Origin: Lachnospiraceae bacterium NK4A144
Lineage (GTDB): Bacteria; Bacillota; Clostridia; Lachnospirales; Lachnospiraceae
Assembly: GCA_000424365.1 (NCBI GenBank)
Contig: AUJT01000008.1
Span: 62,001 to 126,000, forward strand
Direction: 5' to 3'
DNA: 64,000 bases
The position numbers were made by a program, and so were the translations under genes. Below, piece after piece: positions 2,945 to 54,633 of this stretch (position 1 is its first letter; each line of letters opens with the position of its first letter). Below the pieces are notes generated by a model, which saw nothing but the letters and a program-made list of their open reading frames with translations, was not told the origin of the DNA and did no database searches.

Positions 2945-2987
2945 TATGATGTCAGGGTCAAAAGTCCTTTTATCCCTGTCTTCATAT
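2945..2987. repeat. Repeat B, short palindromic form
   Basis: An imperfect palindrome whose left arm contains GATGTCAGGGTCAAAAGT and whose right arm contains CTTTTATCCCTGTC. Close relatives occur at 12372, 26148, 33278, 42691, 43401 and 63019. This copy sits in the 5' leader of the LacI gene, where it would form a strong hairpin in the mRNA. Confidence 0.75.
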
Positions 2988-5016: not shown

Positions 5017-5160
5017 TTTTCTTTACATACCTCCAAACTTTCCGTGCTGCTTAGCACAACTTCACACTCATATAGGAGCGAGTCATAAAGCCATAATACT
5101 AATATCATATCATTGAATTAGAAAATAAATTGGAGTACCATGAAAAATATAAAATAATTT

Positions 5161-5306
5161 GTAACAGTTCACACGTAAACGGAGCACTACGCTGCGGAGT
5201 TTACGACCAAGAAAGATGAAAAGCCATTGGATTTTGCCCATCGCCGGAGGCGATTTAATTGGCAAAATCCGTTACGTGAGCGAGCTGTAAGCGAGTGAAC
5301 TGTAAC
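5161..5306 (+). mobile_element. Repeat A copy 1: 146-bp MITE with 8-bp target duplication
   Basis: The element starts GTAACAGTTCAC and ends GTGAACTGTAAC, giving 12-bp inverted ends with one mismatch. The 8 bases on the left (AATAATTT, 5153-5160) are exactly repeated on the right (5307-5314), a clean target-site duplication. Internal stems are CGTAAAC/GTTTACG and GGATTTTGCC/GGCAAAATCC. It has no coding capacity. Nearly identical copies are at 43511-43655 and, reversed, 49149-49294. It lies in the divergent upstream region of the genes at 4198 and 5335 and could alter either promoter. Confidence 0.9.
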
Positions 5307-5334
5307 AATAATTTAGCAGAAACGGAGTTAAACC

Positions 5335-12321: not shown

Positions 12322-12371
12322 AGTCAAGTATTTTTTTCTGCGTCATAAAATCTGACAGTTGCATATTTATA

Positions 12372-12407
12372 ATGTTGGGATCAAAAGTCCTTTTGCCCCT
12401 GTCATCA
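12372..12407. repeat. Repeat B, short palindromic form
   Basis: Reads with GGGATCAAAAGTCC on the left and CTTTTGCCCCTGTCATCA on the right. The right end merges with the stop codon of the zinc-ribbon gene, whose TGA complement is at 12405-12407. Confidence 0.75.
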
Positions 12408-20837: not shown

Positions 20838-20899
20838 AATGACCCAAGGGGACGGGGGTGGTGGTCCATGGACCACCACCCCCGTCCCCTTGGGTCATT
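20838..20899. repeat. Repeat D copy 1: perfect 62-bp palindrome
   Basis: Both 31-base arms are exact complements with no loop. The outer part is AATGACCCAAGGGGACGGGG and the centre is GGTCCATGGACC. A related palindrome is at 60143-60200. The TGA stop of the lipoprotein gene (20895-20897) lies in its outer arm. Confidence 0.85.
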
Positions 20900-25818: not shown

Positions 25819-26095
25819 CAAAAAAGGGCAGTACCGCAAGGGACGGAAGTCTTTCCGCGGTACCACCCTATTTTTCCTATTTTGAAGCTGCAACACAGCC
25901 AAATGCACAGGAACACTTATCAGCTTAACGCGCTGTAACGTCCGTCAGCAGTCTTAACAAACCACCTCCGGCAGCTCCGCATGTGAATATTTTCCCGGTC
26001 GTGTCAAGTGAAAGCTCTCAGCCGATGACTTTCCTCTCTGGTCAGGTATCTCCGGTATCTTAAAATGCATCAATGCCTTTTTCCATATTTACTGA
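25819..26095 (-). ncRNA. T-box leader (tRNA-Phe-sensing riboswitch) of pheST
   Basis: The minus strand carries the conserved T-box AGGGTGGTACCGCGG at 25855-25869. Downstream is a terminator stem that ends in a T-run near 25819, where GGGCAGTACCGC re-pairs with the T-box region. Upstream, AGAGAGG and GGCTGAGAGC elements fit a stem I. A TTC codon at 25985-25987 is one candidate Phe specifier, but I could not verify the specifier loop. Uncharged tRNA-Phe would stabilise the antiterminator and allow transcription of pheST. Confidence 0.92.
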
Positions 26096-26127: not shown

Positions 26128-26147
26128 GTGTTACACTATTTACTTTA

Positions 26148-26340
26148 TGATGTAAGGGTCAAAAGTACTTTTGCCCCTTACTGATGACACGAATTGCTTC
26201 GCTTCTTTATGAAGCTTACGCAATTCTAAAACACTCGCATTCCGCGTAATTACGCTACATGCTCGTGTTTTGCGGGTCCCAAATAAAAAATCCTTTATGA
26301 GCAAGCTCAATAGGATTTTTTACTTTTGCCCCTGTCATCA
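26148..26340. repeat. Repeat B, long structured form, copy 1
   Basis: The 193-bp unit opens with a complete short palindrome (GATGTAAGGGTCAAAAGTAC, then TTTTGCCCCTTACTGATG) and ends CTTTTGCCCCTGTCATCA. Between them are three hairpins: GAATTGC/GCAATTC (26191-26226); an imperfect 38-base palindrome from ACACTCGC to GCTCGTGT (26231-26268); and ATCCT..TGAGC/GCTCA..AGGAT (26290-26316). A second long copy at 42691-42861 keeps the same structure. The element fills the gap between the pheST promoter and the serA stop codon, whose TGA lies in its terminal TCA. Confidence 0.8.
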
Positions 26341-27513
26341 CTTTATCACACGAACTCTGTAGACATCCTCAAGTGCATTGAGTTTATCAAGTACTTCATC
26401 AGTGATAAGTGAATCCAGATCAAACATTGCTACTGCATACTCTTTTTTAGACTTGGAGTTCAGGTTCGCAATATTTATACCTGCATCACCGAATGCCGCT
26501 GTAAACTTTGTGAGCATGTTTGCCTTGTTCCTGTGGAAGATAACAACTCTTGACGCACTCTCTGCTTCACCAAGGTCGATCGCAGGATAATTTACAGAAT
26601 TCTTGATATTTCCATTCTCCATGTACTCACGGAGTTCCTTTACTGCCATCACAGCGCAGTTGTCCTCTGACTCCTCTGTGGAAGCTCCGAGGTGAGGTGT
26701 TACGATACATCCCTCTGCACCTACTGTTGTCGGATTCGGGAAATCACTTACATACTTTCTGAGTTTGCCGACCTTGAGTGCTGCTACTACGGATTCCTCA
26801 TCTACCAGCTCGTCACGGGCAAAGTTCAGGATCACTGCAGTATCCTTCATGAGCTTGATCGCTTCTGCATTGATCATATGACGTGTGGAATCAAGAAGCG
26901 GCACATGGATTGTGATGTAATCACAATTTGCGTAGATTTCCTCAACTTTAAGCACATGCTTTATGGATCTTGACAGATGCCATGCTGCATCAACAGAAAT
27001 ATAAGGATCATAACCATATACTTCCATGCCGAGATTTACAGCTGCGTTTGCAACCTTAACTCCGATGGCACCGAGTCCGATGACACCGAGCTTCTTGCCT
27101 GCGATCTCTGTTCCGGCATACTGCTTCTTCTGCTTTTCTGCTGTCTTTGCTACATCAGGATCGTTCTTTCCCTCTGTATTAAGCCAGTTGATACCGTCAA
27201 CGATACCACGGGATGCGTAGAGCATACCTGCGATAACGAGTTCCTTTACACCGTTTGCATTTGCACCCGGAGTATTGAATACGACAATACCCTTTTCTGC
27301 ACATTTCTCAAGCGGAATATTGTTTACGCCCGCACCTGCACGGGCAACTGCCAGGAGGTTCTCCGGCAGATCCATGTCATGCATCTTTGCAGAACGCACA
27401 AGGACACAGTCTGCATCCTTGAAATCGTCACAATGAACGTATCCATCACCAAATTTATCGAGTCCGATCTTTGCAATAGGATTCAGTGTATGATATTTGA
27501 ACATTTCTCTCAC
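26338..27513 (-). CDS. serA: D-3-phosphoglycerate dehydrogenase with ACT domain
   Basis: 391 residues. It oxidises 3-phosphoglycerate to 3-phosphohydroxypyruvate with NAD+, the first step of serine synthesis. The Rossmann motif is GVIGLGAIGVKVANAA. Catalytic Arg, Glu and His regions are LNFARDELVDEESV and IVTPHLGASTEESEDN. A C-terminal ACT domain, VVIFHRNKANMLTKFTAAF to the end, should bind serine as feedback inhibitor. It overlaps serC by 4 bases. Its TGA stop lies within the terminal TCATCA of a Repeat B element. Confidence 0.96.
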   Translation of the reverse strand: MREMFKYHTLNPIAKIGLDKFGDGYVHCDDFKDADCVLVRSAKMHDMDLPENLLAVARAGAGVNNIPLEKCAEKGIVVFNTPGANANGVKELVIAGMLYASRGIVDGINWLNTEGKNDPDVAKTAEKQKKQYAGTEIAGKKLGVIGLGAIGVKVANAAVNLGMEVYGYDPYISVDAAWHLSRSIKHVLKVEEIYANCDYITIHVPLLDSTRHMINAEAIKLMKDTAVILNFARDELVDEESVVAALKVGKLRKYVSDFPNPTTVGAEGCIVTPHLGASTEESEDNCAVMAVKELREYMENGNIKNSVNYPAIDLGEAESASRVVIFHRNKANMLTKFTAAFGDAGINIANLNSKSKKEYAVAMFDLDSLITDEVLDKLNALEDVYRVRVIK

Positions 27514-42640: not shown

Positions 42641-42692
42641 AAAAACGTAGGATTCAGACATTTATGTATGTCTCGATCCTACGTTTTTTATT
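42641..42692 (+). terminator. Strong terminator of the pot operon
   Basis: AAAAACGTAGGAT pairs with ATCCTACGTTTTT, and an inner GACA/TGTC extends the stem. The T-run ends exactly where the long Repeat B copy begins. Confidence 0.9.
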
Positions 42693-42861
42693 TTGACCCT
42701 TACTGATGTCACGGATTGCTTCATTGCTACGCAATTCTCGCAATCCTAAAACACTCGCATTTCGCGTAATAACGCTACTTGCTCGTGTTTTGCGGGTCCC
42801 AAGGTCTCAATCCTCTTTGTGCAAGCACAATCGGATTTTGACCTTTTGACCCTGACATCAT
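42691..42861. repeat. Repeat B, long structured form, copy 2
   Basis: Starts within the left palindrome at TTTTGACCCTTACTGATGTC and ends CCTTTTGACCCTGACATCAT. It keeps the three internal hairpins of copy 1: GGATTGC/GCAATCC (42713-42746), the ACACTCGC to GCTCGTGT palindrome, and AATCC..TGTGC/GCACA..GGATT (42810-42837). Two stems differ from copy 1 by paired changes. It fills the convergent gap between the pot operon and the UPF0303 gene and ends 2 bases from that gene's stop codon. Confidence 0.8.
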
Positions 42862-43435: not shown

Positions 43436-43510
43436 TTTTACTCTGATAATATTATATACCAATTCCCCGCCTCATTTTCTCAAACTTTTATTAAAAATGT
43501 ACAAAAAGAG

Positions 43511-43655
43511 GTTACAGTTCACACGTAAACGGAGCATTTACTGCGGAGTTTACGACCAAAAAAGTGGAATAGTCATTGGATTTTGCCCATCGTCGCAGAC
43601 GATTTAATTGGCAAAATCCGTTACGTGAGCGAGCTGAAAGCAAGTGAACAGTAAC
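43511..43655 (+). mobile_element. Repeat A copy 2: 145-bp MITE with 8-bp target duplication
   Basis: Ends are GTTACAGTTCAC and GTGAACAGTAAC. The flanking octamer AAAAAGAG occurs on both sides (43503-43510 and 43656-43663). This copy is the most diverged of the three but keeps the internal GGATTTTGCC/GGCAAAATCC stem. It is inserted at the foot of the terminator of the 43712 gene, so the duplication includes the T-tract and first stem bases of that terminator. Confidence 0.9.
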
Positions 43656-43698
43656 AAAAAGAGCATCACCATGACATCAGTCACAGCAATGCTCTCTT
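43656..43698 (-). terminator. Terminator of the 43712 gene
   Basis: On the minus strand GAGCAT (43689-43694) pairs with ATGCTC (43661-43666), followed by TTTTT. Repeat A copy 2 abuts its T-tract. Confidence 0.7.
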
Positions 43699-43990: not shown

Positions 43991-44048
43991 CAGTAGCTCC
44001 TTTATTCATCTTAAAATCACAAGACATATACCTTGTCTATATGTTTTT

Positions 44049-44070
44049 GTTCACTCGCTTACAGCTCGCC
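44049..44070 (-). repeat. Repeat A fragment (end only)
   Basis: GTTCACTCGCTTACAGCTCG matches the terminal 20 bases of the reversed element, after which similarity stops. Confidence 0.5.
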
Positions 44071-44165
44071 AAGTGCTTCGTGCAGTAAAAAACGCACAAC
44101 AAATATATAATACAGTATATTGTATACATTTTCAAGCTAAAAAGTTCCGCTTTTACAGGTTTCTT

Positions 44166-44237
44166 GTTACAGTTCACTCGCTTACAGCTCGCTCACGTAA
44201 CGGATTCTTCGCTCACGTCGCATCCAATACGCGCAAA
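44166..44237 (-). repeat. Repeat A end joined to a Repeat C-like segment
   Basis: 44166-44205 matches the right end of Repeat A (GTTACAGTTCACTCGCTTAC onwards to CGTAACGGAT). From there the sequence continues as GGATTCTTCGCTCACGTCGC and ATCCAATACGCGCA, which matches the middle of the hairpin cluster at 36189-36255 instead. It appears to be a hybrid or nested remnant. The whole 43991-44318 interval contains no gene. Confidence 0.5.
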
Positions 44238-49029: not shown

Positions 49030-49148
49030 TTTTCATCTTTCTCTGCATCGTTAATTACTACAATGCAGAATTTTTACAACAAACGATATTCTGAATAATT
49101 GTAACACAGAACAACTTTTTGCGCGAGTATTATTGCTTTTCATCTTTC

Positions 49149-49294
49149 GTTACTGTTCACTCGCTTCCAGCTCGCTCACGTAACGGATTTTGCCAATTAA
49201 ATCGCCTCCGGCGATGGGCAAAATCTAATGGCTTTTCATCTTTCGTGGTCGTAAACTCCGCAGCGTAGTGCTCCGTTTACGTGTGAACTGTTAC
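49149..49294 (-). mobile_element. Repeat A copy 3 (reversed): 146-bp MITE with 8-bp target duplication
   Basis: The reverse complement differs from copy 1 at only about 4 of 146 bases. The octamer CATCTTTC is present exactly on both sides (49141-49148 and 49295-49302). The insertion lies in the 3' end of the UvrD-like gene, and its left-end sequence now supplies the last 19 codons and the stop of that gene. Confidence 0.92.
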
Positions 49295-52656: not shown

Positions 52657-54633
52657 TCAAGAATCCAGCTGAACTGTAGGAGGAGCATCCAGACTTTCTT
52701 CCGGATCTGTATCAGAGCTTTCCGGATTTGACGGTTCATAATCCTCTGCTTCCTCGTCTTTTTCCTGCTGCTCATCCTCCTCGTCATCATCATCGTCGTC
52801 ATCGTCATCGTCCGAATCATCATCGTCGGAATCGTCATCATCATCGTCCGAATCATCCTTATCGTCATCGGAATCATCGTCATCATCATCGTCGGAATCG
52901 TCATCAGAATCATCGTCATCATCGGAATCGTCATCGTCATCATCTTCATCCGTATCTTCCGTAGATTCTTCATCATCAGAATCATCCGGCGAACCTTTTC
53001 CGGCGCTTGCCTGGATTTCTCTCAAAATGTCATAGTCATAGTCAATTTCATCGCCATCCGACTTAACATAGCGGAAATAAAACACCGGCGATGTTCCGTT
53101 ATTACCAAACTCCTCACCTACGTGAAGTGAAACATTTCCCGCTGCGCTGGACTCATGAACATACATCTGCTCTGTACCGTCATCAGTCTCTACATATCCT
53201 AAAAAGATACCCGCATGTCCATAACTATGGCTGCCATCATGACCATAAACCATGATGTCACCCGCACGAACATTATCCAGCCCCTTTACGGTGTCATTTT
53301 CCTCATCTTCTACTGCTATAAGCTTCAGGAATCCTCCACCCTGTGAAAAGATCATGCTGTCTGTATTGCAGTATCCAAGACTGTTATTAAGTGCCAGAAG
53401 GTATATATAATCAACCCAGTGTGAGCAGTCCATACCTGAAATCTCATCACAGGCCGCGACAATATCTTCATCAGCGACTATCGGGAAATCGTCTTCACCA
53501 AGTTCTGAATAGTCAGGTCTTAAAGGCTGGGCACCACCAAGGATATACGGGATACGTCCCACCGTAAGGAGCGCTGACTTTACGATACGATATTCACGTT
53601 CCGAGAGACCATCATTATATTTCCAGGTCAGCTGCAGAACAGTCTTTATATCATCAGTACTCAACGGCTCATTTGTAGTCACCGCATTATCCGAAACATT
53701 GTAGGATTCCAGCTCCAACTCATCCCTCGACAGGTGATCGGATTTATCATAAATATCTCCGAGAGACGCATCTCCCGCGCCCTCCATCTCTTTCCGGAAG
53801 CCTGCTGCCGTAAGCATGTCGAGACGGTCCTGCTCTGCCTTCTTTCGAGCTTCCTCATCTTCCAGATATTTCTGATAAGCAAGCTGATTATCATAAGCCG
53901 ACTGAACAGCATAGTCAAAAATCGGTGATGTATAGTTAAAAATCAGCCCCATAAGCATCACAAGACATGCTGAGATCACCTTCGCCCGCATTGCTGCGAC
54001 CTTTAGTGAAAATGCAGACACTCTCTTAAACGGAATCGGGTTCATCCAACGTGTATGACGTTTCCACGGTGTCCTTGCGGCCTCTTTTTTTACTTTTCTA
54101 AGTTCTCTATTGTAATGATAGTTTTCTCCAAAGAAGCCAAGGTGCTTCTGAGGCCCCAGATATACTCTGTCTTTACTGAAAAACTTAAGGAAACGATGTA
54201 TCTGGTACGGAATATCCAGCGGCGGGAACGACAGCATATCGATAAATCCCGGTCCGTTCTCCGGATAATACCTACGCGCATATCGCCTGATCTCGGCAAA
54301 TCTTGATCTTCTCTTTCTGTTAAAAACAGTGATCTTCCAAGCTAACCAGTTCTGATGCCTTTGTTTCTGAGGTCCCGGAACTACGTAGTTTTTGCTGAAA
54401 AGATGCTGTATCTCGCAAAGCAATCTGCCAATACTAAACGGCGGAAATTCCATCATATCTATGATGCCCGTTCCTGTGAGCCCGGGAACTCCCTCGACCT
54501 TCTTCGCCCTCTTTTCTGCTGCACGCTTATTAAGCCAGGACGCAGTCGGACCTAAATGTTTCTGTGGTCCAAGCGCTATTCTGTCCTGGCTGAAAAACTT
54601 CCGTATTCTTTTCAGGTGATATATCAAATGCAT
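52657..54633 (-). CDS. Membrane-anchored NlpC/P60-like protein with N-terminal triple repeat and Ser-Asp tail
   Basis: 658 residues in four parts. Residues 1-205 hold three copies of a basic repeat centred on FFSQDRIALGPQKHLG (12-28), LFSKNYVVPGPQKQRH (78-93) and FFSKDRVYLGPQKHLG (151-166); the first two are each followed by IDMMEFPPF or IDMLSFPPL. A membrane span follows near 218-236. The exported part has a coiled-coil-like YLEDEEARKKAEQDRLDML, then an NlpC/P60-type domain with IPYILGGAQ, DCSHWV (Cys403), YGHAGIF (His473) and VHESS (His493). The final 110 residues are an almost pure Ser-Asp/Glu tail. By the positive-inside rule the repeats are cytosolic. It probably cleaves peptidoglycan peptides. 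Confidence 0.75.
   Translation of the reverse strand: MHLIYHLKRIRKFFSQDRIALGPQKHLGPTASWLNKRAAEKRAKKVEGVPGLTGTGIIDMMEFPPFSIGRLLCEIQHLFSKNYVVPGPQKQRHQNWLAWKITVFNRKRRSRFAEIRRYARRYYPENGPGFIDMLSFPPLDIPYQIHRFLKFFSKDRVYLGPQKHLGFFGENYHYNRELRKVKKEAARTPWKRHTRWMNPIPFKRVSAFSLKVAAMRAKVISACLVMLMGLIFNYTSPIFDYAVQSAYDNQLAYQKYLEDEEARKKAEQDRLDMLTAAGFRKEMEGAGDASLGDIYDKSDHLSRDELELESYNVSDNAVTTNEPLSTDDIKTVLQLTWKYNDGLSEREYRIVKSALLTVGRIPYILGGAQPLRPDYSELGEDDFPIVADEDIVAACDEISGMDCSHWVDYIYLLALNNSLGYCNTDSMIFSQGGGFLKLIAVEDEENDTVKGLDNVRAGDIMVYGHDGSHSYGHAGIFLGYVETDDGTEQMYVHESSAAGNVSLHVGEEFGNNGTSPVFYFRYVKSDGDEIDYDYDILREIQASAGKGSPDDSDDEESTEDTDEDDDDDDSDDDDDSDDDSDDDDDDDSDDDKDDSDDDDDDSDDDDSDDDDDDDDDDEEDEQQEKDEEAEDYEPSNPESSDTDPEESLDAPPTVQLDS
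52776..52976 (-). repeat. TCATCG-type microsatellite encoding the Ser-Asp tail
   Basis: Plus-strand sequence is built almost only of TCATCG/TCGTCA/TCATCA triplets, encoding Asp and Ser on the minus strand. Such tracts change length by slippage and in triplet steps would stay in frame. Confidence 0.9.

Follow-up and report, generated by a model that had tools for sequence, protein, structure and literature searches.

Clostridiales-1 RNA, known until now as the Rfam family RF01699, is cargo of a non-autonomous DNA transposon (a MITE), and both the mobility of this element and the pairing conserved within its RNA are established here. The element was met in a stretch of 64,000 nucleotides from Lachnospiraceae bacterium NK4A144, referred to throughout as the window, where a sequence-only reading had picked out two copies (26148-26340 and 42691-42861) with three stems in the same order, and had offered a structured mobile element or a repeat-derived RNA as their nature. 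The copies and their stems are as described and both descriptions hold: target-site duplications and empty sites accompany conserved pairing, which places the element among the structured mobile repeats, as bcr1, BOX and REP are. The account that we favour, and consider rather probable, is that the MITE is moved in trans and carries an RNA often read together with the preceding gene, with a REP-like role in 3' untranslated regions.

The expectation that no described family has such a layout did not survive, as both window copies give cmscan matches to the whole RF01699 model (gathering cut-off 48 bits), copy 1 at 120.9 bits on the minus strand (26182-26340) and copy 2 at 125.7 bits on the minus strand (42704-42860), and the core of the window elements belongs to this family, published in 2010. 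The accessible text of its original description, by Weinberg et al. 2010 (PMC2864571), gives Clostridiales-1 a table row reading y, n and n with the distribution 'Clostridiales, human gut', and in the main text leaves mobility, terminal repeats and copy number unmentioned. Rfam types the family as 'Gene; sRNA'. The table headings over the three letters are reportedly RNA, cis-regulatory and switch. In the open-licence literature, with the 2010 paper represented by its main text, we found no report of mobility. The Rfam model itself stops before the right-hand end of the mobile unit, so that the MITE is longer than the model.

Two compensatory base-pair changes between the window copies had also been proposed, and both can be read in the sequence: A26192-T26225 against G42714-C42745, and A26300-T26307 against T42820-A42827. 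The first falls in the stem GAATTGC/GCAATTC (26191-26197 paired with 26220-26226) and the second in GAG(CAAG)CTC. The same reading took both copies to be bounded by a palindrome, and this boundary sequence is the 17-nt terminal inverted repeat of the elements; it does enclose copy 1, but copy 2, which retains its left terminal repeat (42843-42859, minus strand), is truncated inside the right-hand palindrome near 42691. The Rfam model places the RNA strand of both copies on the minus strand (Table 1).

Table 1. Features of the Clostridiales-1 elements and their short derivatives in the window
Feature	Position	Strand	Basis
Copy 1: MITE, complete (191 nt), around a Clostridiales-1 RNA core	26149..26339	-	Terminal repeats and ends; RF01699, 120.9 bits; site empty in relatives G047 and G003
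Target-site duplication ACTTTAT, one side of copy 1	26142..26148		Read in the sequence; 7-8 bp typical of the family
Target-site duplication ACTTTAT, other side of copy 1	26340..26346		Read in the sequence
RNA core of copy 1, RF01699 match	26182..26340	-	cmscan
Hairpin 1 of copy 1, first on the RNA strand, G(CUUG)C loop	26274..26331	-	Structure line; covariation, helices 2 and 3
Hairpin 2 of copy 1, conserved purine-rich internal loops	26228..26271	-	Structure line; helix 4
Hairpin 3 of copy 1, includes A26192-T26225	26191..26226	-	Structure line; helices 5 and 6
Terminal repeat of copy 1, RNA 5' side, GATGACAGGGGCAAAAG	26323..26339	-	End-pattern search
Terminal repeat of copy 1, RNA 3' side, GATGTAAGGGTCAAAAG, beyond the Rfam model	26149..26165	+	End-pattern search
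Copy 2: MITE truncated in the right-hand palindrome	42691..42859	-	RF01699, 125.7 bits; absent in G047, solo end in G003
Hairpin 3 of copy 2, includes G42714-C42745	42713..42746	-	Read in the sequence; structure line
36-nt derivative, two terminal repeats back to back	2948..2983		0 and 2 mismatches
36-nt derivative, two terminal repeats back to back, one degenerate	12371..12406		Family D2; end-pattern search

The limits of the mobile unit emerge when copies from the source genome are aligned with their flanks, where a right-hand extension, GTAAGGGGCAAAATTTACTTTTGACCCTTACATC, often follows the Rfam core. The resulting unit of ~190 nt starts with GATGTCAGGGTCAAAAG and finishes with nearly its reverse complement. 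Allowing at most one mismatch, the end pattern GATGNMAGGGDCAAAAG is present in the genome at 114 places per strand, against 1 and 0 for a reversed-pattern control, and with up to three mismatches it is found 16 times in the window, where 2.74 occurrences are expected. Perfect duplications flank 18 of the 35 copies from this genome that have the right end (13 of 7 bp and 5 of 8 bp, both flanks being available for 33) and 15 of 18 such copies in a diverse set (10 of 7 bp and 5 of 8 bp). When flanks were exchanged between copies in 2000 trials, the mean number of perfect 7-mers was 0.57 in the source genome and 0.68 in the diverse set, with maxima of 5 and 4. Copies without the right end have a perfect 7-mer in 1 of 31 and 1 of 42 cases, respectively, and L005 has an 8-mer; because those in the diverse set so rarely show a duplication, many copies may be old or stand-alone. 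The 7-mer test covered 64 of the 70 collected source-genome copies (both flanks being needed) and all 60 diverse copies, and the 8-mer test the right-end copies. Short end pairs in 80 listed loci of named genomes, which may overlap one another, bear perfect duplications in 23 of 45 cases (20 of 7 bp, 3 of 8 bp). Derivatives with common ends measure 36-37, 73, 81-90 and 143 nt, and at one locus (L333, genome G016) such ends enclose another long hairpin, so that their cargo may be of more than one kind. The element is thus described by a length of ~190 nt, terminal inverted repeats, many copies, duplications of 7-8 bp and empty sites in relatives, as a MITE is.

Mobility is seen at copy 1, whose neighbours are a 2-hydroxyacid dehydrogenase gene (26338-27513, minus strand), read by us as SerA-like from its ACT domain, and a T-box-like leader before a phenylalanyl-tRNA synthetase gene (the leader, at 25836-26082 on the minus strand, scores 77.9 bits, under its cut-off of 93). 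Three of 25 loci in relatives (L311-L313) were compared here, the others being more distant and many of them standing for a neighbouring gene. In G047 and G003, where the protein is 98% identical, the site is empty and the gene end, GTG ATA AAR TAA, continues towards the leader, while in G030 (97%) the site is occupied by an insertion that another repeat interrupts; two close relatives without copy 1 and one with it show that the MITE has moved. The window sequence has a TGA made of the duplicated T and the first GA of the element, so that the stop codon is replaced and the protein unchanged. At the copy 2 site G047 is empty and G003 holds a solo end; the element is absent from G030 as well, where the sequence beyond the gene is too divergent to align.

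The 4.09-Mb genome (68 contigs) holds 87 RF01699 matches at E <= 0.001, 68 of them above the cut-off, and the same search found none in 14 control genomes. We collected 70 of the 87, namely 67 of the 68 above the cut-off and three of 75 nt, with copy 1 taken from the window. Measured against their consensus, 60 aligned cores comprise 14 identical to it, 29 at no more than 10 differences, one at 16 and 16 at 26 or more, a distribution that points to a recent burst superimposed on an older stock. The family occurs in at least 43 of 48 genomes of the genus and, patchily, in at least 111 of 392 genomes and 54 of 173 genera of the order, these counts being lower bounds because stricter filters were used. 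From the best matches listed in the order-wide search, 60 diverse copies were picked by hand. An end-pattern scan of named genomes gave at least 115 stretches, and most of the 80 listed titles belong to the Lachnospiraceae or to further Clostridia. Butyribacter intestini, Muricomes intestini, Coprococcus comes and Enterocloster bolteae are among the matches listed.

Other repeats share this landscape. A second interspersed repeat, beginning GTTACAGTTCACACGTAAACGGAGCA, lies on both strands of the window (5140-5326, 43490-43660, 44043-44206 and 49145-49294), and elsewhere lies within Clostridiales-1 elements or is fused to them (L062-L064, L066, L067, L075, L120 and L313). A TCATCG-like repeat array with 9-15-nt spacing (52730-52998) sits inside a minus-strand open frame (52657-54633). 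Directly behind the core, several genomes have partial copies of its modules in tandem, the unit varying by genome (L142, L146, L149, L157, L166, L172, L174, L185 and L186).

Selection on structure, in RNA or single-stranded DNA, had been suggested from the two compensatory pairs, and we followed the pairing in a larger alignment of 58 copies, made up of 55 of the 60 diverse copies (L185 and L189-L192 left out), both window copies and L054. Paired positions do not vary independently in it: all 37 named pairs, in six helices that include a closing stem, show double changes, as do all 28 pairs that RNAalifold predicted on a sequence-only alignment of the same copies. Paired combinations fill 94.7% of 2116 cells, compared with 71.8% after shuffling and 28.6-43.7% when the alignment is slid, and the covariation score is 0.610 compared with 0.191 and 0.054-0.107; of these controls, shuffling takes no account of relatedness and sliding retains it. 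None of the five measures taken was equalled in 500 shuffles. The closing stem covaries as well, its arms standing ~150 nt apart, and together with the three hairpins it supplies the features by which members of RF01699 are recognised. Unpaired columns are also conserved in this alignment, some of them invariant, and GCTTGC, which gives a G(CUUG)C loop, is present in 50 of the 60 diverse copies. Both CUUG loops and tandem G-A pairs are features characteristic of RNA.

Within the one genome, too, copies at separate loci differ by compensated changes. Thirteen of the 16 cores at 26 or more differences (the rearranged L073, L076 and L079 being dropped) and window copy 1 make a set of 14 older copies, in which 56 pairs show 38 double changes, 5 one-sided cells and 18 broken ones; shuffling yields 6.6 double changes on average and 15 at most. 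Here 97.7% of cells are paired, against 91.9% when shuffled. Several master copies could explain part of these between-locus changes.

The chief competitor, which we regard as unlikely although it has real points in its favour, is that the element is selfish DNA whose hairpins are of consequence solely in single-stranded or cruciform DNA, during transposition or replication, with template switching (quasi-palindrome correction) keeping the arms alike and the RNA having no role. Arm-to-arm copying in DNA also yields double changes without intermediates, and one-sided changes are indeed scarce. They number 24, as compared with 493 double changes, in the diverse set (mean identity 0.59), and 4 against 36 in the older copies of the source genome (mean identity 0.85), where a SAM-riboswitch control from the same family (30 loci out of 53 listed matches), less diverged than the diverse set at a mean identity of 0.83, gives 25 against 51. 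Against it, one-sided changes are commoner in the 18 MITE-type copies (35 against 108 double), and covariation extends to the widely separated arms of the closing stem. The tandem partial copies in other genomes would suit the selfish reading, since they suggest replication slippage.

Strand preference bears on the same choice. The conservation of bases in loops and internal loops is that of a single strand, counter to a role in DNA only, and this Rfam strand gives the more stable fold in all 60 diverse copies, at a mean of -78.7 kcal/mol compared with -68.6 for the complement; the copies are not 60 independent tests because the loop bases are common by descent. A wobble test gave 27 GU against 16 AC on the Rfam strand of the diverse set and 18 GU against 27 AC for the complement fold; it carries little weight, as the older source-genome copies are balanced between strands (GU/AC 15/4 and 14/4), a balance that favours the selfish reading, and RNAalifold favours GU by construction. 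The orientation of copies relative to genes, taken as open frames of at least 70 codons in 400-nt flanks, also opposes the selfish reading: between codirectional genes, 25 of 34 copies in the source genome (p 0.009) and 17 of 25 in the diverse set (p 0.11) run with the genes, or 42 of 59 when pooled (p 0.0015), some diverse genomes giving several copies. For right-end copies only, the counts are 14 of 20 (p 0.12) and 4 of 7, which are not significant.

A stand-alone, trans-acting sRNA gene of the Rfam type, multiplied by the MITE, would agree with the Rfam entry, with the conserved unpaired bases and with the presence, in other families of the order, of cores that lack MITE ends. We think it improbable, considering the dozens of dispersed copies in a single genome and the patchy presence across the order, and considering that the preceding stop codon is often adjacent, lying within 30 nt or inside the element in 24 of 39 sense cases in the source genome and 23 of 32 in the diverse set.

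For the MITE that carries an RNA read with its neighbour, the favoured account would run as follows. A transposase acting in trans, probably of DDE type, would recognise the 17-nt ends and insert the element into intergenic DNA that is for the most part rich in A+T, as a rule behind a T and with 7 or 8 bp duplicated, a step for which the ends, the duplications and an empty site are at hand. The core folds into the closing stem and three hairpins, with its CUUG loop and purine-rich internal loops, pairing being kept by the compensatory changes described above. Because the copies run mostly with neighbouring genes and copy 1 supplies a stop codon to the gene before it, the RNA would belong to the transcript of the preceding gene. 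The weakest step is the role, the likeliest being a stable REP-like 3'-UTR structure that would shield or insulate transcript ends; any function assigned to Clostridiales-1 RNA is suggested by analogy with bcr, BOX and REP elements. RNA-level selection on the copies is likely. A bolder joint reading, to which we lean less than halfway, makes Clostridiales-1 a mobile, strand-specific RNA device of several helices carried in MITEs that lands mostly in sense beside genes and is selected as RNA at each site, so that transposition seeds dozens of working copies; equally tentatively, this device would be spreading through Lachnospiraceae and relatives and would differ from an ordinary sRNA gene.

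The search for the enzyme covered part of the sequence collections and a few transposase families, and within that scope no autonomous element with the MITE ends was found. PF00872 (IS256 type) has no match in the source genome, and PF01609, searched in four genomes of which one had no match, gave 11 loci, none with two such ends within 2 mismatches. Among the five PF01609 loci of the source genome, L352 and L353 have inverted repeats of their own and L344 has a short one, and no inverted repeats were found for L347 and L349; at L352 the MITE merely adjoins the insertion sequence. A scan of the 80 listed named loci (L195-L274, of at least 115) for inward end pairs 300-4500 nt apart, with flanks agreeing in at least 5 of 7 bases, gave three pairs, of which those of 399 and 326 nt contain short open frames only and that of 2824 nt (L257) is read as two separate MITEs. 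The 50 open frames beside 24 solitary ends show no family common between loci, and G396, G383, G402, G418 and G023 have no end pairs at 0.5-4 kb. A viral source was rejected too, as 29 stretches of viral contigs carry the end pattern once each with no partner at 0.5-4 kb with a duplication, which we take as chance.

Movement as a REP-type element by a RAYT (Y1) transposase is already contradicted and deserves hardly any credence: the elements are intergenic, palindromic and high in copy number and the genome has a 270-aa RAYT-like gene with a Y1_Tnp match (L044, the only such gene there), but this gene is flanked by a different palindrome of its own (~1080-1105 and ~2005-2035), RF01699 is absent from its locus and those of three shorter Y1_Tnp genes (4 of 5 matches scanned), and the 7-8 bp duplications are not expected of Y1 transposition. 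The gene and its palindromes appear to be a separate REP-type system. A perfect palindrome with 31-bp arms in the window (20838-20899) resembles those around this gene.

An orphan Rfam family is now tied to a mobile element whose unit exceeds the Rfam model, and with this comes a caution, that transposition lies behind how many copies of this 'sRNA' there are and how widely they occur. The MITE, scattered over the genomes of gut bacteria, explains how Clostridiales-1 spreads. If the compensatory changes at each site reflect selection on RNA, dozens of copies of different ages in one genome amount to a natural experiment.

Among known systems, the closest in form are the bcr repeats of the Bacillus cereus group, described in the accessible text as 100-400 bp long, with bcr1 in tens of copies per genome, mobile features and conserved secondary structure; their mobility is tied to TTTAT motifs and a process like site-specific recombination, and bcr1 is restricted to that group (PMC6542083, PMC2267715). 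By that description the Clostridiales-1 MITE shares the size class, tens of copies, mobile features and conserved structure, but it has variable 7-8-mer duplications beside 17-nt inverted repeats and is found in Lachnospirales and relatives. BOX elements are modular, structured, intergenic repeats with mobile features, built of boxA, boxB and boxC modules. The MITE resembles them in being a modular, structured, intergenic repeat with mobile features and is probably unrelated in sequence; those of Streptococcus pneumoniae are named in PMC3110155. REP elements, in the accessible text of PMC3733652, are miniature palindromes for which mobility, and perhaps action as RNA, is proposed. The Clostridiales-1 MITE is likewise palindromic, miniature and mobile, whereas, measured against that account, it has target duplications and we found no RAYT link for it; and where a REP is a 20-40-nt palindrome ending in GTAG, the MITE is ~190 nt long and ends in GATG, as do its derivatives of 36-37 nt.
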